From: Bacteroidota bacterium | Lineage (GTDB): Bacteria; Bacteroidota; Ignavibacteria; Kryptoniales; JAKASW01 | NCBI GenBank assembly: GCA_021825585.1 | Contig: JAKAGT010000029.1 | Coordinates: forward strand, 1-62,641 | Direction of reading: 5' to 3' | Length of the DNA: 62,641 bases | Shown: positions 21,969 to 32,835 of the stretch, in pieces | Position numbering within the stretch: the stretch's first letter is position 1 | How the letters are laid out: each line of letters begins with the position of its first letter | The notes under the pieces: model-generated | What the model was told of the DNA's origin: nothing | The model's database searches: none | The model's input: the letters and a program-made list of their open reading frames with translations, nothing else | Translations under genes and position numbers: made by a program

Positions 21969-23219
21969 CTAAACTCTTCCTACCACCCAGGGATACCTCG
22001 GGATCTGGTCGCTCTCAATCACTTCCCCTTTGATTACCCGCAACAAATACTCCGCGGCATTATCGGGGTCGAGACCGGCCCCTGTCTCTTTTGCCGCCGC
22101 GGCCATGGCTTCCCGGGAGCGTGAAGAGTCATGGCTTTCGTCTTCGCGCCTGCCGCACTTCAGAAACTCTTCCAGTTTAGTTCTCAGGCTTTCCGCACAT
22201 CCTGAGCGGAAAACGTATCCATTTGTGCCGTCTCGTACAACGTCCGCGGCTCCGCACATATCTGAAACTATGACAGGCACGCCCGCCATCAAGGCTTCGT
22301 TTACCACGAGCCCCCATCCGTCCCACCGCGACGGTAGCGCGAGAATATCTGCTTTCGATATCCTCTCGGTTATCTGCCGGGGATTCAGGGTGCCTTCGAA
22401 CCTGATCCTGCCGGTGAGATTTCTGACGCCGGCCCACTCTTCCAACTCGCTCCTCATCTCTCCTGTCCCGATGAGCTGAAGGTTCAGCTGGCGATGGATT
22501 GCAAAGAGCGGTTCCATTGCCTTGAGCAGGATGTCGAGTCCCTTGCGATGAACCAGCTGCCCTACATAGACGATATCGACCGTTGTCTTATTCCGGGCAG
22601 CGTTGGACACGGAGGTGAATGCGGAGGATTTTCGGAAATACGCGAATGGATGAAGCTTCGATCCGTCGGCGCCGTATGATCTGAAGTAATCATAGGCGAA
22701 ATGGGAGATCGGAAGTAAGCCGACGGAATGCCTCACAATCGGCTTCCCGAACGCGCGCGTCAGCTTCAATTTCAACGGGGGCACGGTATCTCTCGCATCA
22801 GGGGCTTCGGAATAAATGAAGTATTTTGAGTGTGATAGGAGCAGAGACATGAGGACAGTCTCGGTCACCTTTCCTGCCCAGAGACCGCTTACGATGTTGA
22901 TGTCATGGCGGTGACTTAATGCCTTTGAGATAGAGTCCCGGAGCGGATGCCTTTCGTCCAGAAACTCGTGCTCGTAGTTTGCAAGGTCATCCTGCCATCC
23001 GAGCCTCACCCTGTCTTCAGGAATTCTGTTCGTGAATATAGCCTTCAAATTGACTTTGCCGGTCCGCAAAAGCGCTCTGAAGAAATCGGCCTGGTAGAAC
23101 GACGGCATGTTCATCCAAAAGACAAGATCAAACAATTGTTGAAATCCCTCCGCTTTTCCATATTGAACTAAGAGCCCACTCAAGGCTGGATATATACGTA
23201 TATGGATTGTATCGACCAA
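21969..23219 (-). CDS. Glycosyltransferase family 4
   Basis: A 416-residue GT-B glycosyltransferase on the minus strand. Near the N-terminus DLVFWMNMPSFYQADFFRAL resembles the opening of GT4 enzymes, although it begins only around residue 30. The donor-binding half has IVYVGQLVHRKGLDILLKAM, LQLIGTGEMRSELEEWA and the EX7E-like ALPSRWDGWGLVVNEALMAG followed by VPVIVSDMCGAADVV. The first 30 residues are atypical, and an internal start is possible, but no better ATG precedes DLVFW. It belongs with the polysaccharide locus, facing the epimerase. Confidence 0.85.
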   Translation of the reverse strand: MVDTIHIRIYPALSGLLVQYGKAEGFQQLFDLVFWMNMPSFYQADFFRALLRTGKVNLKAIFTNRIPEDRVRLGWQDDLANYEHEFLDERHPLRDSISKALSHRHDINIVSGLWAGKVTETVLMSLLLSHSKYFIYSEAPDARDTVPPLKLKLTRAFGKPIVRHSVGLLPISHFAYDYFRSYGADGSKLHPFAYFRKSSAFTSVSNAARNKTTVDIVYVGQLVHRKGLDILLKAMEPLFAIHRQLNLQLIGTGEMRSELEEWAGVRNLTGRIRFEGTLNPRQITERISKADILALPSRWDGWGLVVNEALMAGVPVIVSDMCGAADVVRDGTNGYVFRSGCAESLRTKLEEFLKCGRREDESHDSSRSREAMAAAAKETGAGLDPDNAAEYLLRVIKGEVIESDQIPRYPWVVGRV

Positions 23220-23373
23220 TAATTTAATGAAATTGTGCTTCGCAAGCCTTAAAATATCGTTTCTCGGAAATCATGGCGTTGGACTCCTGAATACAACTTG
23301 ATGAATGATCGCACCACTGGCTTCTTTAGAAATTTCCGAATATTGGTTACTTTAATCATCATGGGTCACGCAA

Positions 23374-25491
23374 ATGCTTGAACAATCTCCGCGCGAACTT
23401 GCCCGGGTCGTCTTTGCGAGAATAATCGACAGACGCATTTACGGCTTCAGGACAAAGACCCTTCGCCGCGCGGTTACTCCGGATAGGCTGTTAAGAAGTT
23501 CCGGATATGACGGCCGCAGCCGGCATGAATTCATCACATCCTTCAAGCGTTCATTACGCCAGCGATTCTTCCTCAGCGATCTCAACCGGAAGGAATTCTA
23601 TATCCACCTCATGACCTCGTTGGGCGGCTTCGATTCCATCATGGACGACGCCGATCTGGTGCATGAGAACAAATACCGGACTCTCGGCTCGGAGCTTTAC
23701 TCGTTCGGTGAGAAGATGGACTGGCATCTCGACTTCAAGTCCGGAAAGAGGTGGCCGCTGGCGTTTTACTCCGACGTTGATGTCATAGGTAAAGGAGGCA
23801 GGAGACAGGAGGCAAGAGACAGGACACAAGAGTCGGGAGGCGGCAGACGGGAACAGGGTGAACGGAACACGGAACACGGAACGCCGAACATCGAACACGC
23901 CGACGTTAAAGTGCCCTGGGAGGTCAGCAGGTTCCACCAGGCGATCTGGCTCGGAAAGGCATACTGGATTAGCCACAGCGAGGCACACACGGAGAAATAC
24001 GTAAGCCTCGTGAATGACTGGATTGAAAACAATCCCGCGGGGTACGGCGTCAACTGGGTTACGCCCATGGAGGCCGCCATCCGGGCGATGAATCTGATAG
24101 TAGGCTTCCTCTATTTCCTCGGCTCGAATAGACTTTCGGAGGAGTTTGTCATGCAGTTCCTCTGTTCGATGTACGAGCATGGAGTTTACATCCGGCACAA
24201 CCTCGAACGGAGTCTGCGGAACGGGAATCATTACGTCTCGGACCTGGTCGGGTTGGTTTACATTGGCTTTTTGCTCTATGATACGAAAGCGGGAAAGCGA
24301 TGGGTTAATTTCGCGCACCGGGAGCTGGAAAAGGAGATAATGAACCAGGTCTGCGAAGACGGCACCGATTATGAAAAATCTGCCAGCTATCAGCGGCTCG
24401 TCGCCGAACTGCTTACTTCCGCTTACGTTCTCCTGAAGCTCAATAATTTCAATGTATCGGGCGACTTTCACGACCGCCTGGAGAAGATGGTTACATTTCT
24501 CGCCTCCGCTACAATGCATGACGGGAGAACGCCCAACATCGGCGACGCCGACGACGGGCGGGTCTTCAGGATGAAATCCGAAATCGGCTTCAATGACCAC
24601 CGCGACATCATCTCGCTTGGCGCCGCGCTTTTCGGAAGAAGCGACCTGAAGACGGTTGCTCCCAACTTCAGCGAGCTCGCACTCTTGCTGCTGGGAGGCG
24701 GGGGATTCGAGAGGTTTTCTTCAATCCAGGTCGATGAAGAAAAGCGATCGATGATTTTCAGGGAGGGTGGATTCGCATTCCTGAAGACCAGGAAGGACTT
24801 TTGCTCGTTCGATTTCGGAGACATAGGCCAAAAGGGGCGCGGTGGACATGGACACAACGACGTGCTAAGCCTCACGATTTCAGGCAGGAATCAGTTTCTC
24901 GTCGACAGGGGAACATACTGTTATACATGCGATACGAAACTCAGGAACAAGCTCCGCTCTACATATTCTCACAACACGGCAGTCGTCGACGGGGTCGAGC
25001 AGGCCGATTTCGCGGGACTATGGTCTGTGAAGGAAGACAGAACCTTTCCTGAGCTCCTCCGCTGGAACTCGAATGACGAGCAGGATATCGTGGAGGCTCA
25101 ACACTACGCCTACGAGAGGCTCGTACGTCCGGTCACGCACGGGAGGAAGCTGACCTTTAACAAGCACCAACGCACTTACCTGATCGAGGACAATTTTACG
25201 GGCGATGGGGAGCATACGATCGAGTTGATGTTCCATTTTGCGCCGGGGCTTAAGGTGACCGGTCTCGGGAAAAAATTCATCGCCCTCGAAGGCGAGGAAT
25301 ATGCCCTGTTGAAATTCCAGCACGATTTCACTCTGGAAAAGTGGGAACATTCGCCGAGCTACGGACTGCTGCAGGAAGCTCAGACGGCGCACATCAAACT
25401 GCGTGTCAATCTTCCGGTCAGAGTCGAGACCTTTGTCTTTGTGATCAGCAGCATGGAAGACATGAACCACATTCTTAACAGGATCCAATGA
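23374..25491 (+). CDS. Heparinase II/III-family protein with a repeat insertion
   Basis: A 705-residue protein with an N-terminal alpha/alpha toroid (VPWEVSRFHQAIWLGKAYW, then ERSLRNGNHYVSDLVGL) and the C-terminal heparinase II/III beta-sandwich (GRGGHGHNDVLSLTISGR, FLVDRGTYCY, RSTYSHNTAVVDG). Such proteins occur in surface-glycan loci and are related to polysaccharide lyases, but many are not proven lyases. No signal peptide is seen, so it may be cytoplasmic. Residues 134-176 are an in-frame 43-residue insertion of Gly/Arg/Glu-rich, low-complexity sequence absent from the family. Removing it gives FYSDVKVPWEVSRF, a continuous family sequence. It shares an ATGA overlap with the next gene. Confidence 0.87.
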   Translation: MLEQSPRELARVVFARIIDRRIYGFRTKTLRRAVTPDRLLRSSGYDGRSRHEFITSFKRSLRQRFFLSDLNRKEFYIHLMTSLGGFDSIMDDADLVHENKYRTLGSELYSFGEKMDWHLDFKSGKRWPLAFYSDVDVIGKGGRRQEARDRTQESGGGRREQGERNTEHGTPNIEHADVKVPWEVSRFHQAIWLGKAYWISHSEAHTEKYVSLVNDWIENNPAGYGVNWVTPMEAAIRAMNLIVGFLYFLGSNRLSEEFVMQFLCSMYEHGVYIRHNLERSLRNGNHYVSDLVGLVYIGFLLYDTKAGKRWVNFAHRELEKEIMNQVCEDGTDYEKSASYQRLVAELLTSAYVLLKLNNFNVSGDFHDRLEKMVTFLASATMHDGRTPNIGDADDGRVFRMKSEIGFNDHRDIISLGAALFGRSDLKTVAPNFSELALLLLGGGGFERFSSIQVDEEKRSMIFREGGFAFLKTRKDFCSFDFGDIGQKGRGGHGHNDVLSLTISGRNQFLVDRGTYCYTCDTKLRNKLRSTYSHNTAVVDGVEQADFAGLWSVKEDRTFPELLRWNSNDEQDIVEAQHYAYERLVRPVTHGRKLTFNKHQRTYLIEDNFTGDGEHTIELMFHFAPGLKVTGLGKKFIALEGEEYALLKFQHDFTLEKWEHSPSYGLLQEAQTAHIKLRVNLPVRVETFVFVISSMEDMNHILNRIQ
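23794..23898. repeat. Heptanucleotide tandem array inside the heparinase gene
   Basis: Fifteen consecutive degenerate 7-base units fill 23794-23898 exactly: GGAGGCA, GGAGACA, GGAGGCA, AGAGACA, GGACACA, AGAGTCG, GGAGGCG, GCAGACG, GGAACAG, GGTGAAC, GGAACAC (twice), GGAACGC, CGAACAT and CGAACAC. The direct repeat CCGACGTT flanks the insertion at 23771-23778 and 23900-23907. The distance between these copies, 129 bp, is 43 codons, so the host frame is kept. Confidence 0.85.
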
Positions 25492-26462
25492 GGCTGCTCG
25501 TGGCACAGAGGGTCGACGAAGATGCGTCCGATCTGATTATGAGGAAGGCCGGTGCGGCCTTCGACATCGATTTCCTGGCAAGTGCGGATAAGGAAAGCCG
25601 GAAGCACCTCCTCGAAAACGCGGACGTCATACTTGCCATGAATTTCCGCAGGGACATCTTCGAAGAGGAAGTGCCGTTAATCAAGAAGGCGAAGCTTATT
25701 CAAATTACACTCGCCGGCGCCGACATGGTCCCGTATGCGAAACTCAGCCCCGGAATCGTAATTTGCAGCAACGGCGGGGCGTACAGCGAACCTATTGCAG
25801 AGCATGCAATCGGGATGATGCTCGCCCTCGCGAGGAGCTTCCTCCCGCTCCACGACGGCCTCAGCCGCGGTGAATTCGATCAGTCGACCAAACACAAAAT
25901 GTTGAACGGCTCAACTCTCGGGATTATCGGGTTCGGCGGGATCGGAAGGCGGGTTGCCGGGATTGCACGTGCATTCGGCATGACGATACTCGCGATAAAC
26001 TCGACCGGCAGGACGGAGCGGGAGGTCGATTTCTCGGGGACGCTGAAAGATCTCGACCATGTACTGCAAGAATCCGACTTCGTGCTCCTCACGATCGCGT
26101 TGAACAAATACACGAGGGATCTTATCGGGGCAAAAGAACTGAATCTTATGAAGGAAGATGCAGTGCTGGTCAACGTCGCACGGGGAGACCTGATCGATGA
26201 GAAGGACCTGTACGAGCATTTGAAATCGCATCCTCACTTCAGGGCTGGCATCGATGCGTGGTGGGTCGAGCCTTTCAACCAACCGAAGTTCGAAATTCAC
26301 TCCCCCTTTTTCGAGCTGGATAATTTTCTCGGCTCGCCCCACAACTCCTACCTTATCAAAGGGATTCGGCGCAAGGCTCTGGAGGCTGCGGTCGACAACA
26401 TCCTGCGGTTTGCTGACGGACGGGAGCTGAAGAATGTTCAGAAGAGAGAGAACTACCTATAA
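25488..26462 (+). CDS. D-isomer-specific 2-hydroxyacid dehydrogenase
   Basis: A 324-residue NAD(P)-dependent enzyme that interconverts 2-oxoacids and D-2-hydroxyacids. The Rossmann motif is GIIGFGGIGRRVAGIARAFG near residues 144-163. The catalytic set is present: Arg in VNVARGDLIDEKDL, Glu in DAWWVEPF and His in SPHNSYLIKG. Its ATG overlaps the heparinase-like stop (ATGA), so translation is coupled. The substrate is unknown. A role in making or recycling a surface-glycan substituent would fit the position but is not supported by the sequence alone. Confidence 0.9.
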   Translation: MRLLVAQRVDEDASDLIMRKAGAAFDIDFLASADKESRKHLLENADVILAMNFRRDIFEEEVPLIKKAKLIQITLAGADMVPYAKLSPGIVICSNGGAYSEPIAEHAIGMMLALARSFLPLHDGLSRGEFDQSTKHKMLNGSTLGIIGFGGIGRRVAGIARAFGMTILAINSTGRTEREVDFSGTLKDLDHVLQESDFVLLTIALNKYTRDLIGAKELNLMKEDAVLVNVARGDLIDEKDLYEHLKSHPHFRAGIDAWWVEPFNQPKFEIHSPFFELDNFLGSPHNSYLIKGIRRKALEAAVDNILRFADGRELKNVQKRENYL

Positions 26463-27443: not shown

Positions 27444-28811
27444 TCAGAGTTCCTCAAAGACGTAGCCGCTTTCACCGTGCTGGGCGAGATCCAGGCCGTC
27501 GAATTCGTCCTCCTCAGAAACACGAAGCCCGACGGTCTTGTCGAGCAGCTTCAGAATCAGCCATGTGACTCCAAACGAGTAGGCCATTGCTACCGCCAGC
27601 GCAAGGAGCTGCGCTCCGAGCAGTCCGATGTTTCCGTAAAAGAGTCCGTTGCCTCCCGATGCGTTTATGAGCTTCGTCGCGAAGAGTCCGGTGGCAATTG
27701 CACCCCATGCACCTCCGGCACCGTGTACTCCTACAGTGTCGAGAGAATCATCGTATCCGAATCTCTCTTTCAGGCGGATAGCGACGAAGCAGACGATGCC
27801 TCCTACCAGCCCGATAAGGAGCGCAGCCATCGGACCGACGAAGCCCGACGCGGGGGTGATCGCGACAAGTCCAGCGACTGCTCCGGATGCTGCACCGAGG
27901 ACGGTCGGCTTTCCCCTCGTGTACCACTCTGCGAACATCCATGAGAGCGCGGCCGCGGAGGCCGACACCTGTGTGGCGACGAATGCAGAAACCGCGAGCG
28001 CCCCGGAAGCAAGTGCGCTTCCCGCATTGAATCCGAACCAGCCGAACCAGAGAAGCGTCGCGCCAATCAGCGTCATCGTCAGATTGTGCGGCGGCATCGG
28101 CTCCTGTCCGTAACCTCTTCTTCTTCCGATGAGGATCGCCGCTGCGAGTGCCGAGACTCCCGAGCTGACATGTACCACGAGCCCTCCTGCGAAGTCCAAT
28201 GCGCCGAGTCCTCTTAACCAACCTCCCGTTCCCCAGACCCAGTGTGCAAGAGGATCATAAACAAGAGTCGCCCAGAGAACCAGGAAGATCAAATAGGTCT
28301 TGAACTTGAATCTCTCCGCGATCGCACCCGTTATAAGCGCCGGGGTTATCACGGCAAACATCATCTGGAACAGCATGAATGATTCGTGCGGAATCGTCGG
28401 GGCGTAGCTCGGGTTCGGTGCCAGCCCGACCCCGCTCAGCCCGATCCATTTCAGGCTTCCGATGAGATGCAAGACGTCAGGACCAAAAGCGAGGGAGTAT
28501 CCGAAGAGCACCCACTGCACCGTGATAACGCCGATCGCAATGAAGCTCTGCATTATTGTACCAAGAACATTCTTGCGCCTGACCATTCCTCCATAAAACA
28601 AAGCGAGCCCGGGCGTCATCAGCATGACAAGTGCGGTCGATACCAACATCCATGTCGTATCGCCCGTGTTGACTCCGTCCGTGGAATTTATTTGCTGTGC
28701 CGTCTGTTGAACATTTTGTGAGTTGATCTCTTTGTTGACAGATTGAGCTTTGGCCGACTGAAATTGCAGCATTACAAATGCTGCGGCAGCTAACACGAAA
28801 TATCTCTTCAT
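27444..28811 (-). CDS. amtB: Ammonium transporter (Amt family)
   Basis: A 455-residue inner-membrane transporter with an N-terminal signal (MKRYFVLAAAAFVMLQFQSA). Eleven membrane helices follow. Family features are LFYGGMVRRKNVLGTIMQSF, WAHWVWGTGGWL-like LAHWVWGTGGWLRGLGALDF, and the twin channel histidines in LVVHVSSGVSAL and GVHGAGGAWGAIATG. It conducts ammonium/ammonia for nitrogen assimilation. A GTGGAG site precedes the ATG. The cytoplasmic PII regulator (glnK), usually next to amt, is not adjacent. In the 230-bp gap upstream I found no convincing sigma-54 promoter. Confidence 0.95.
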   Translation of the reverse strand: MKRYFVLAAAAFVMLQFQSAKAQSVNKEINSQNVQQTAQQINSTDGVNTGDTTWMLVSTALVMLMTPGLALFYGGMVRRKNVLGTIMQSFIAIGVITVQWVLFGYSLAFGPDVLHLIGSLKWIGLSGVGLAPNPSYAPTIPHESFMLFQMMFAVITPALITGAIAERFKFKTYLIFLVLWATLVYDPLAHWVWGTGGWLRGLGALDFAGGLVVHVSSGVSALAAAILIGRRRGYGQEPMPPHNLTMTLIGATLLWFGWFGFNAGSALASGALAVSAFVATQVSASAAALSWMFAEWYTRGKPTVLGAASGAVAGLVAITPASGFVGPMAALLIGLVGGIVCFVAIRLKERFGYDDSLDTVGVHGAGGAWGAIATGLFATKLINASGGNGLFYGNIGLLGAQLLALAVAMAYSFGVTWLILKLLDKTVGLRVSEEDEFDGLDLAQHGESGYVFEEL

Positions 28812-29058
28812 CTACTCCACCGTTAAAGCTTGATTTGATGCGCAACACTCTTCTCCCGCACAATCACGAGCCGCGAGGTCAAATTGGAAAAGCAGCGCAG
28901 AATATTCAAAATGTCCTTCAATAATAAGGATGTTGATAGTCCTGCCAAAAACTATTTTTGCCCAATTTATGATTGGCTTAAGAAAGTAAGGCTTCGCGAC
29001 CCGAATAGAGAGGCTTCAGCGATGAAATGTTTCAGGAACAAAGTTGAACCTGTCTCAT

Positions 29059-30123
29059 ATGTCTAAGGTAATTTCAGTCTCGACGGAGGATGCTCCGTCA
29101 AAATTCGCTCAATCCGACGTGCGCGAATTTGCGCACGAACTCTTCTCGAGCAGCCGGAGCGACGTCGACAGGCTAATAAATGTGTTTGACCACGCTTCGA
29201 TCAGTTCGCGCCATTTTACCGAGGAGAGGTCGTGGTACGGCAAAGAACACGGCTTTGAGGAGAGGAACGGGCTTTTCGTGAAGAACGCGATGAAGATGTC
29301 CGCCGAATGTACACGAAAGTGTCTCGAAAACGCGGGGCTACGGCCTCAGGACATACACCACATCATCTTTGTCTCGAGTACCGGTCTTTCTACTCCGAGC
29401 ATAGATGCCAGGCTCTTCAACGTCCTGAAATTCGATCGCCATATAAGAAGAACACCAATCTGGGGACTCGGTTGTGCTGGGGGCGCCGCCGGACTCAGTC
29501 GGGCCCTCGAATACACGACTGCCATCCCGGAACATGCGGTTCTGGTGATAGCTATCGAGCTCTGCGGTTTGACCTTTCGTAAAGACGATTACTCAAAGAG
29601 CAACCTGATCGGCACCTCGCTTTTCTCTGACGGAGCGGCCGCCGTGCTTGTAGTGGGCGAGAATCATCCGCTGAATCGGAAGAACGGTATCACGCTCCTC
29701 AACTCGCTCTCCACGATCTACGACGATTCTCTCGATGTCATGGGGTGGGAGGTCAAGAACGACGGGTTGAAGGTAATCTTCAGCAAGGATATACCGGCCA
29801 TCGTCCGCAATTCCGTCAGGCCGAACATCGAGGAACTTGCCGCCATGAACGGAATTCAGATCTCGGACATCAAGCACTACATCGTTCATCCGGGCGGGTT
29901 AAAAGTAATCGATGCCTATGAAGAAGCGCTCGGATTGTCCGGGGATAAGTTCCGCTTCTCGCGAAAAGTCCTGAACGAACACGGGAACATGTCGTCGCCG
30001 ACTGTGCTTTATGTGCTGAACGAGTTTCTGAAGAGCGACGGATACAAGCCTCACGAATACGGTCTTATCTCCGCGCTCGGACCGGGGTTCAGTTCTGAAT
30101 TAATCCTCTTCGAGACGGATTGA
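29059..30123 (+). CDS. Type III polyketide synthase (chalcone/stilbene synthase-like)
   Basis: A 354-residue thiolase-fold enzyme that extends an acyl-CoA starter with malonyl-CoA. The catalytic triad is complete: C139 in WGLGCAGGAAG, H277 in IVHPGG and N310 in EHGNMSSPTVL. Bacterial members of this type make alkylpyrones or alkylresorcinols from fatty acyl-CoAs. ATG 29059 is listed; a TTG at 29044, better placed behind CAGGAACAAAG, would add five residues. A methyltransferase gene overlaps its stop codon. The same pairing occurs as bpsA-bpsB in Bacillus and srsA-srsB in Streptomyces, which suggests a methylated phenolic lipid or pyrone as product. Confidence 0.9.
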   Translation: MSKVISVSTEDAPSKFAQSDVREFAHELFSSSRSDVDRLINVFDHASISSRHFTEERSWYGKEHGFEERNGLFVKNAMKMSAECTRKCLENAGLRPQDIHHIIFVSSTGLSTPSIDARLFNVLKFDRHIRRTPIWGLGCAGGAAGLSRALEYTTAIPEHAVLVIAIELCGLTFRKDDYSKSNLIGTSLFSDGAAAVLVVGENHPLNRKNGITLLNSLSTIYDDSLDVMGWEVKNDGLKVIFSKDIPAIVRNSVRPNIEELAAMNGIQISDIKHYIVHPGGLKVIDAYEEALGLSGDKFRFSRKVLNEHGNMSSPTVLYVLNEFLKSDGYKPHEYGLISALGPGFSSELILFETD

Positions 30124-30629
30124 TATACTTCTTCGGATTCATCTTTCTTCTTCTCGCGCAGCGTGCGTTCGAGCTGAAGGTTGCAAGGCGACATGAGAAG
30201 GAGCTGAAAAATCGCGGCGGGCGGGAAGTTGACACAAATGGTTACAGGGTAATTGTGGGGATGCATTCTGCGTTCTTCGTTTCTCTCACACTGGAAAAAG
30301 TCGCGTTCGACCGCCCCTTGAATCCTGAATGGTCGATACTCATGGCCATATTTTTCGCAGCCCAACTTCTTCGATATTGGGCGATACACTCCCTTGGAAT
30401 ATTCTGGAACACGAAGATTATGATTGTCCCCGGCCACCCCATCGTCAGGAAGGGTCCGTACAGGTATTTCCGGCATCCTAATTACGCGGCGGTCATTACA
30501 GAATTCGCAGTTGTTCCCCTGATCTTTTCCTGCTATGTGACGGCTGTAGGCTTCACCATAGCCAACGCGTTGCTTCTCGGAAGGCGGATTAGGATCGAGA
30601 CAAGCGCATTAGCTTCCGCGAGGCCTTGA
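30120..30629 (+). CDS. Isoprenylcysteine carboxyl methyltransferase-family protein (BpsB-like)
   Basis: A 169-residue membrane protein with three or four hydrophobic segments. The SAM-binding signature is GPYRYFRHPNYAAVITEFAV. The ICMT/BpsB-like family, when paired with a type III polyketide synthase, methylates the alkylpyrone or alkylresorcinol product rather than a protein. The gene starts at TTG 30120, which overlaps the PKS stop TGA by two bases, so the two proteins are translated together. No further tailoring gene, such as a hydroxylase, follows. Confidence 0.83.
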   Translation: MIYFFGFIFLLLAQRAFELKVARRHEKELKNRGGREVDTNGYRVIVGMHSAFFVSLTLEKVAFDRPLNPEWSILMAIFFAAQLLRYWAIHSLGIFWNTKIMIVPGHPIVRKGPYRYFRHPNYAAVITEFAVVPLIFSCYVTAVGFTIANALLLGRRIRIETSALASARP

Positions 30630-30639
30630 GACAAAAAAA

Positions 30640-30697
30640 GCCGAACGGAATTATCATCGAATACGAAACCTAACACACCTACAATCGTCCGTTCGGC
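30640..30697 (+). terminator. Long-loop inverted repeat after the PKS operon, possible terminator
   Basis: GCCGAACGGA at 30640-30649 is perfectly complementary to TCCGTTCGGC at 30688-30697, with a 38-base loop. A run of seven A precedes the left arm, and GTTTATATAG follows the right arm, so it could end transcription in either direction. It lies in the 385-bp non-coding gap 30630-31014 before typA. A second weak hairpin, around 30787-30805, is the only other structure seen there. A small RNA or leader is also possible. Confidence 0.4.
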
Positions 30698-31014: not shown

Positions 31015-32835
31015 ATGAGAGACTATAAACTGAGAAACATAGCTATAATTGCACACGTTGACCATGGGAAGACAACGTTGGTCGATTACATGCTGAAGCA
31101 GACAGGCACTTTCCGGGAAAACCAGAACATGGGAACGAGAATCCTCGATTCCAACGACCTGGAGCGTGAAAAGGGAATCACTATACTTGCCAAGAACGTA
31201 TCCGTCAGATACAAGGATGTGAAGATAAATATTGTCGACACGCCCGGCCACTCCGATTTCGGCGGCGAAGTCGAACGGACTCTCATGATGGTAGACGGCG
31301 TTCTTCTCCTTGTCGACGCAGCCGAGGGACCGCTGCCTCAGACTAAGTTTGTCCTCCGCAAGGCACTCGAGCTCAACCTGAAGCCGATTGTTGTCATCAA
31401 CAAGATAGACCGGAAAGACGCGCGTCCGTCAGAAGTCCTGAACGAAATCTACGACCTGTTCATATCGCTCGGCGCTAACGATGAGCAGATAGATTTTCCC
31501 GTCATCTACACGATTGCCAAGCAGGGTATCGCAAAACACTCGCCGGAGCAGGAGAGCAGCGATCTTTCTCCGCTGTTTGAAGCCATACTGAAGCAAATCC
31601 CCGAGCCGCCTGCCGACGCGGAGCCGCCGTTTCAGATGCTTGTCATGAATATCGAGTACAATGACTATATCGGCCGGCTCGGGATCGGGAGAATATTCCG
31701 GGGAACTATCAAGGACGGCGCCCCGATGCGCGTCGTTCACAAGGACGGAAAGGTCGAGGATGCACGCATTACGAAGATTTACACGTTCGAAGGCCTGAAG
31801 AGGAACGAGACCGTCGAGGCGAGCGCCGGAGAGATTATCGCCATCGCCGGGATGGAAGACGTCGATATCGGCGAGACGATATGCGATCCCGCCGACGTGA
31901 CTCCGCTGCCGTTCGTGAACATCGAGGAGCCGACGCTTTCGATGAATTTCGTCGTAAACAACTCTCCGTTCGCGGGCAAGGAGGGGAAATACGTCACCAC
32001 GAGAAATCTTGCCGAGCGGCTAACGCGTGAGCTGCGAGCCAACGTCAGCCTGCGTGTCGAACCGGGTGATACTCCCGACATTTTCACGGTCAGCGGGAGA
32101 GGCGAGCTGCATCTGGCGATACTTATCGAGACAATGCGGAGGGAAGGATACGAGTTCCAGGTCGGGAAACCGAAGGTTATCTACAAGACAATCGACGGAG
32201 AACTTAGAGAGCCGGTAGAACATGTGGTCATAGATGTGCCGGATGACTACGTCGGGACGGTCATAGACAATCTCAGCCGCAGAAAAGGGGAAATGAAGAA
32301 TCTCATGCCGAGTCATGGCAATACCAGGATCGAGTTCATCGTGCCTGCCCGGGGACTAATCGGATTTAGAACGGAGTTCATGACGCAGACAAAGGGAACC
32401 GGAATCCTGCACCATAACTATCACGGTTACGAGCCGTTCAAGGGTGAGATCGAAGGACGCAGCAAGGGTGCGGTTGTCGTGTTGGAAACGGGGACCGCGG
32501 TTGCGTACGCGATGTGGAAGCTCGGGGAGAGAATGACGTTCTTCATCGAGCCGGGTACGCAGGTGTACGCCGGAATGATCGTCGGGGAAAACGCCCGAGA
32601 AGATACGATAGTCGCGAACGTGTGCAAGACAAAGCACCTGACGAACATGCGTGCATCTGGCGCCGACGAAGCCATACGTCTCGAACCGCCCGTGCTGATG
32701 AATGTCGAGAAGGCGATAGAGTGGATAAACGACGACGAGTATGTCGAGTTCACTCCGAAGTCGATCCGGCTTCGCGAGAGAATCCTCGACCACGACGAGC
32801 GGTACAAGGCGAGGAAGAGGACGGCGGTAGGATAA
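31015..32835 (+). CDS. typA: Translational GTPase TypA/BipA
   Basis: A 606-residue ribosome-binding GTPase of the EF-G superfamily, involved in 50S assembly and stress adaptation. The G1 motif is [10 protein letters not shown] near residues 12-21; G3 is [16 protein letters not shown] and G4 NKIDR. Domain II follows, and the C-terminal TypA-specific part contains [19 protein letters not shown] and [18 protein letters not shown]. The length matches the family (about 605). It is alone on the plus strand, converging on the PIN/DUF2281 pair. The only ribosome-binding candidate (GGAG) is 13 bases upstream. Confidence 0.97.

Follow-up and report, generated by a model that had tools for sequence, protein, structure and literature searches.

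In Bacillus, two adjacent genes, bpsA and bpsB, encode a type III polyketide synthase (PKS) and a methyltransferase. The cited passages of PMC4901931 describe BpsA as converting long-chain acyl-CoA and malonyl-CoA into triketide pyrones, and BpsB as yielding methyl ethers. Small amounts of alkylresorcinol are also ascribed to bpsAB, and the pyrones are described as affecting biofilm shape and sporulation (PMC5686519, passages cited). In other bacteria, larger gene sets combine a type III PKS with a methyltransferase. SrsB is annotated as an ICMT in the portion of PMC6669644 that deals with an srs-like operon, and the hidABC genes of cyanobacteria and a planctomycetal operon of methyltransferase, oxidoreductase and PKS genes are linked to alkylresorcinols in the relevant part of PMC10896814.

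Here, a gene pair of this kind was analysed in a stretch of 62,641 nucleotides, the whole of which is called the window. By orthology with BpsA and BpsB, the same chemistry as in Bacillus is most likely. We hold, with a probability of roughly 80%, that the pair is a two-gene lipid operon of the bpsA-bpsB type making mainly O-methylated long-chain alkylpyrones.

The two genes and their surroundings

The initial annotation described a type III PKS with an intact Cys-His-Asn triad whose stop overlaps the start of a membrane methyltransferase, and both open reading frames were confirmed on the + strand, at 29044-30123 and 30120-30629. The PKS scored 76.9 and 77.1 bits against PF00195 and PF02797 (Pfam gathering score 27), and the triad, aligned with 97 BpsA-like sequences and 12 references (109 type III PKSs in all), is intact as claimed (Table 1). 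The start codon was revised. TTG 29044 was dropped for ATG 29059, which is probably the true start because all 34 aligned sequences, the window among them, have methionine in its column, a count that leans somewhat on start codons picked near the start of the match in relatives. Some relatives to which longer N-termini were assigned keep a methionine in this column. The predicted structure of the PKS (pLDDT 91.9) had its best PDB match in PKS11 of M. tuberculosis (4jao; TM 0.95, 32% identity), and the genome of the window holds one PKS of this kind.

Table 1. Positions of the features in the window, and relatives with a nitroreductase-family gene at the locus
Feature	Position or locus	Strand	Basis or remark
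Ammonium transporter gene (amt), divergent flank, outside the operon	27444..28811	-	TIGR00836 above cut-off
Type III polyketide synthase (PKS) gene, BpsA-type	29059..30123	+	354 aa from the probable start ATG 29059; PF00195/PF02797
Catalytic Cys139 codon	29473..29475	+	C in 109/109 aligned type III PKSs
Trp230 codon, aligned with the PKS11 Trp, hence with ArsB Trp281 (cyclisation residue)	29746..29748	+	Alignment
Catalytic His277 codon	29887..29889	+	H in 109/109 aligned type III PKSs
Catalytic Asn310 codon	29986..29988	+	N in 109/109 aligned type III PKSs
TTGA overlap of PKS stop and methyltransferase start	30120..30123	+	Sequence
ICMT-family membrane methyltransferase gene, BpsB-type	30120..30629	+	169 aa, TTG start; PF04140
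Perfect 10-bp inverted repeat, 38-nt loop, flanked by an A run and GTTTATATA; possible terminator	30640..30697	+	Fold z-score -3.05
typA/bipA gene, downstream flank, outside the operon	31015..32835	+	TIGR01394 above cut-off
Nitroreductase loci, class relatives	L042, L196, L201, L203-L206, L208, L209, L211-L217, L037, L038		
Nitroreductase loci, Rubrobacter	L069, L107, L117, L121		

The methyltransferase belongs to the ICMT family (PF04140, 95.9-96.8 bits; gathering score 24). Of the five ICMT-family loci above the cut-off in the genome of the window, that of the operon scores highest, the next reaching 54.4 bits. Over whole alignments the PKS and the methyltransferase are 46% and 43% identical to the B. 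inaquosorum pair, which was taken as bpsAB from kinship and gene order. In pairwise BLAST the methyltransferase matched the BpsB-like protein of that pair with E 1e-44 (44% over 161 aa), and the best of the four other ICMT-family loci in the genome of the window with E 4e-7 over 41 aa. Residues H119-P120-N121-Y122, E128, R156 and E160 are invariant in all 39 aligned sequences. The predicted structure (pLDDT 96.8) modestly resembles an archaeal ICMT, the top PDB match in Foldseek being Ma-ICMT (4a2n; TM 0.65, E 2.6e-3), and no PDB match fell under E 0.001.

The overlap of the two genes comprises four bases, formed by the PKS stop TGA at 30121-30123 and the methyltransferase start TTG at 30120-30122, and suggests that their translation may be coupled. 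In relatives of the same genus the site reads ATGA or TTGA, with ATGA in L028, L030 and L031. Among 90 pairs, the genes abut or overlap in 52, are separated by 1-30 nt in 32 and lie further apart in 6, counts biased towards small gaps because, among the possible start codons, the one closest to the PKS stop was taken. The linkage is not due to chance, given this close spacing in most of the 90 pairs together with the overlaps within the genus.

The operon is bounded by amt and typA, and a third operon gene was sought and rejected. The amt neighbour recurs at seven loci of the same genus. The inverted repeat directly 3' of the methyltransferase gene has terminator-like flanks and is a possible terminator. 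One of 200 shuffles folds as well, and a second full copy is absent from the genome of the window. The consensus terminator scan left it uncalled because its 38-nt loop exceeds the length that the scan allows. In a promoter scan upstream of the PKS, promoter-like and terminator-like sites were about as frequent as in shuffles. An anti-phage role was considered and discarded, PADLOC having given no match. Further upstream, window positions 21969-26462 hold a GT4-like glycosyltransferase gene on the - strand and a 2-hydroxyacid dehydrogenase gene, and several neighbours in this region recur in genomes of the same genus.

Occurrence, ancestry and variants among relatives

Within the genus of the window, a whole PKS is present in 9 of 13 genomes, a C-terminal fragment in G006, and no PKS in 3 (G001, G003 and G010). 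The G006 fragment (L045) consists of the last 28 PKS residues, 100% identical to the window, at the start of contig G006:C48, and is followed by the methyltransferase. G009 carries, at the end of contig G009:C118 (L029), PKS residues 1-60 with 98% identity to the window, besides a full gene of its own at about 70%, and the bin may therefore mix two species.

In G001, G003 and G010, amt and typA are still neighbours, about 520, 1,260 and 1,240 bases apart, and the site between them holds no credible remnant of the pair. The weak matches obtained there were rejected, as they lie in flanking genes or, at E 6.5, in the L152 gap. The PKS is absent from these three genomes as a whole, and the absence of the methyltransferase refers to the amt-typA site. 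Since both genes are gone from this site in three genomes, they seem to come and go together, and joint gain and joint loss in the genus both seem compatible with the empty sites. An open reading frame of about 190 residues, which we take to be DUF488-like, sits where the pair is missing in the amt-typA gap of G003 and G010 (L153 and L154).

In the wider Ignavibacteria-like class of the window, the pair proved to be common and no exception. Type III PKSs at E <= 1e-40 occur in 104 of 294 sampled genomes, and close matches (E <= 1e-65) number 70 in 69 of the 294, L197 and L198 being two contigs of one genome; the sample is not random, because all 13 genomes available for the genus of the window were included. 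After removal of L026 and L185, which end at a contig edge, the methyltransferase adjoins the PKS in 57 of the 68 testable class loci. It is missing from the other 11 (L037, L038, L190, L193, L200, L202, L204, L205, L207, L208 and L210), among which L207 has an early stop in the PKS frame. The presence of a PKS without methyltransferase at these loci indicates that the family does not require methylation. In family f5, which has no methyltransferase there, a hydrophobic frame, considered as a candidate substitute for it, occupies the same place after the PKS (L037, 8685-8987; L038, from 9111).

Outside the methyltransferase count lie 37 more distant class matches, of which L020, L043 and L044 were inspected. 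In these three, a more distant type III PKS is followed by a protein of 220-232 aa (a class I methyltransferase in L043), and in L043 and L044 the third gene encodes a protein of 373-394 aa (an FAD oxidoreductase in L043). A Deinococcus plasmid (L134) carries a three-gene set comparable to that of L043.

Of the named relatives, the best 80 of 510 confirmed were analysed; they span 58-39% PKS identity, and very near genomes may be missing from them. In 75 of these 80 the PKS has a BpsB-like gene beside it, and the five without one are L084, L092, L102, L112 and L124. The closest of these best 80 of 510 are MAGs of Chlorobiota (58%), Dadabacteria (56%) and Ignavibacteria (55%), and from 52% down they are mostly Bacillota, with Rubrobacter, Chloroflexota and others. 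The class set and the named set overlap (L047=L220, L049=L167, L112=L205 and L119=L219). Plasmids contributed 176 records with a type III PKS match. Eight plasmid regions were inspected. Those of Lysinibacillus (L128) and Azospirillum (L130) have an ICMT gene after the PKS, and the six others (L127, L129 and L131-L134) do not.

The pair shares its ancestry with the Bacillus-type pairs. A quick tree was computed for 71 PKSs, with chosen references as the root. In it the window PKS falls in a clade with its own genus, family f14, and MAGs of Chlorobiota, Ignavibacteria, Bacteroidetes and Dadabacteria. This clade is nested in a 61-row group (98% SH-aLRT) together with homologues from Bacillales, Sporomusaceae, Rubrobacter and alphaproteobacteria, and THNS, DpgA, PhlD, a Deinococcus PKS, the three-gene L043 type, PKS11 and CylI fall outside. 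The branches between the clade of the window and that of the Bacillales have a support of only 84-89, and the placement of several long reference branches is unsure. Families of the class are scattered over the tree, f15 beside Sporomusaceae, f5 beside Bacillales and f11 nearer the window, and these separate positions suggest several transfers.

The methyltransferase tree recovers the clade of the window (99%), and also the f15-Sporomusaceae group and Rubrobacter. It disagrees with the PKS tree in placing f11 next to f15-Sporomusaceae/Rubrobacter, the Bacteroidetes MAG L119 at the base and the Planococcus group off the other Bacillales, shifts that are for the most part weakly supported. The two trees appear to agree largely. 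Pairwise identities of the two proteins are correlated (r 0.74 in 89 pairs, a value reached in 0 of 1000 permutations), and shared ancestry by itself contributes to this correlation.

Some relatives have further genes at the locus. A nitroreductase-family gene lies near a BpsA-like PKS at 23 loci, 22 of them distinct, upstream of the PKS in f15, f24 and Rubrobacter and downstream in f5, and an AMP-binding (acyl-CoA-ligase-like) gene lies upstream of it at 10 f15 loci; these assignments were made with Pfam for PF00881 in L042 and L038 and for PF00501 in L042, and by BLAST clustering elsewhere. The nitroreductase-bearing loci possibly form a distinct pathway subtype, and a literature search on this partner gave no mention of it among the matches listed. 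In f11 (L039, L040 and L041), the pair is embedded in an exopolysaccharide-type operon with polysaccharide export, chain-length and glycosyltransferase genes, assigned by Pfam in L040 and by clustering in L039 and L041. The window has none of these nitroreductase, acyl-CoA-ligase-like or exopolysaccharide partners, and a search around the PKS loci of its genus revealed no nitroreductase-family or acyl-CoA-ligase-like partner.

Predicted product and alternative readings

In the pathway that we propose, the PKS would accept a long-chain fatty acyl thioester at Cys139 and extend it with two, sometimes three, malonyl-CoA units. Ring closure would yield chiefly a 4-hydroxy-6-alkyl-2-pyrone and possibly some alkylresorcinol. 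With S-adenosylmethionine as methyl donor, the ICMT-like enzyme, embedded in the membrane, would then methylate a ring hydroxyl, and the resulting methyl ether of a pyrone or resorcinol would stay in the membrane. Such a molecule might act as an envelope lipid or as a developmental or stress signal. The initial annotation proposed methylated alkylpyrones or alkylresorcinols, and this fits the Bacillus chemistry in the cited passages of PMC5686519 and PMC4901931. Its description of the product as phenolic names only a possible outcome, because the main products reported there for the Bacillus kin are pyrones; on the present analysis a pyrone appears more likely than a phenolic product.

A tentative alternative, and a distinctly less probable one, is that the pair makes mainly an alkylresorcinol, which would be converted to a methoxy-resorcinol as in the SrsA-SrsB steps of Streptomyces griseus. 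Trp230 of the window PKS aligns with Trp230 of PKS11, and PMC5916927 equates this position with the ArsB Trp and counts PKS11 among resorcinol formers. The ArsB residue is described as important for the formation of resorcinol rather than pyrone in the cited part of PMC6274091. CylI, the second-closest solved structure to the PKS model in the fold search, was solved with a resorcinol product, and BpsA itself yields some resorcinol (PMC5686519, passages cited). However, the tryptophan is present in all 97 BpsA-like sequences, those of Bacillus included, for which triketide pyrones are the main products in the passages cited, and in 8 of the 12 references of the same alignment. It was therefore discarded as a discriminator between pyrone and resorcinol. 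The resorcinol-forming CylI has a leucine at this position, so the tryptophan and resorcinol formation are not strictly coupled, and Trp230 would allow a resorcinol without predicting it. The structure of PKS11, moreover, is titled for methyl-branched alkylpyrones.

It is unlikely that the pair belongs to a polyketide-quinone pathway, an alternative respiratory electron carrier whose oxidising enzyme would be encoded elsewhere in the genome. PkQ and srs operons do contain both a methyltransferase gene and one for a type III PKS (PMC9927152 and PMC6669644, passages cited), and some class relatives have a nitroreductase-family gene close to the PKS, but the operon of the window, bounded by amt and typA, is without a flavoprotein hydroxylase gene. 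We also give little credence to the idea that the methyltransferase acts on another substrate, such as a protein or a phospholipid, and is merely co-transcribed with the PKS. The enzyme barely passes the cut-off of the phospholipid methyltransferase family PEMT (PF04191, 26.6 bits; gathering score 25), and the PKS stands alone in the 11 class loci given above. Against this idea speak its BpsB-type sequence, its co-inheritance with the PKS, the joint absence of both genes from one site in three genomes, and its score for the isoprenylcysteine O-methyltransferase equivalog NF040696, which stays under the cut-off (46.9 against 160 bits). BpsB, furthermore, is reported to methylate a pyrone (PMC4901931, passages cited). 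Finally, a divergent FabH or DarB-type ketoacyl synthase, suggested by the general thiolase fold and an ACP_syn_III_C domain above its cut-off, is very improbable in view of the 64.9 bits against the FabH model (cut-off 292.1), both chalcone-synthase domains above gathering, and the matches listed, in which the 60 solved sequences (out of 129) and the 50 fold matches are type III PKSs by name. The PKS likewise stays below the cut-off of the DpgA model (184.7 against 425 bits), and a position among unrelated ketoacyl synthases, named at the outset as the result that would tell against the proposal, did not occur in the PKS tree.

Beyond the preferred reading of an alkylpyrone operon, one may speculate that bpsAB in this class is a widespread and repeatedly exchanged module that makes a pyrone or quinone-like membrane lipid for respiration or envelope remodelling in bacteria without known spore formation, the end products being diversified by branch-specific partners (the nitroreductase-family flavoprotein, the acyl-CoA ligase and the exopolysaccharide operon). 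We regard this broader idea as doubtful. If the preferred reading is true, alkylpyrone-type membrane lipids reach beyond spore formers, actinobacteria and a few Gram-negatives, in view of the 70 close PKS matches in 69 of the 294 class genomes sampled, their role becomes testable in bacteria that are not known to form spores, and the Ignavibacteria-like class gains small lipid markers.

Comparison with described systems

Literature searches on Ignavibacteria-type bacteria found no description of a bpsAB-type system and no product chemistry for a homologue from this group, and papers mentioning both 'Ignavibacteria' and 'T3PKS' do not connect the two in the portions retrieved. The hidABC genes and the planctomycetal operon differ from the window in having another gene order and an oxidoreductase; neither trait is seen in the window, where an oxidoreductase gene beside the PKS and the methyltransferase is absent. 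Gene sets comparable to these, in which a class I methyltransferase and an FAD enzyme come after the PKS, are present in L043 and on the Deinococcus plasmid (L134). PKS11 is the closest solved structure and has the same tryptophan, but it forms a long branch outside the 61-row group. Like the window, srsABC of Streptomyces griseus and pkqABC of mycobacteria and Streptomyces combine a type III PKS with a methyltransferase gene, but they include a third gene for a hydroxylase or monooxygenase, whereas the next gene downstream in the window is typA. Equating the pair with those of both Bacillus and Streptomyces, as the initial annotation did, is thus upheld for the bpsA-bpsB type by the trees and by the adjacency in the best 80 of 510 named relatives, and not for Streptomyces, whose third gene, the hydroxylase, is lacking here.

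Bacillus bpsA-bpsB differs from the window in bacterial group and in gene neighbours, those of the window being amt and typA, and its role in sporulation does not simply carry over. The two systems share the order of their two genes, whose ends abut or overlap, and the ICMT type of the partner. The pair extends a known operon type to another group of bacteria, and its novelty lies in the host group and in the breadth of its occurrence.
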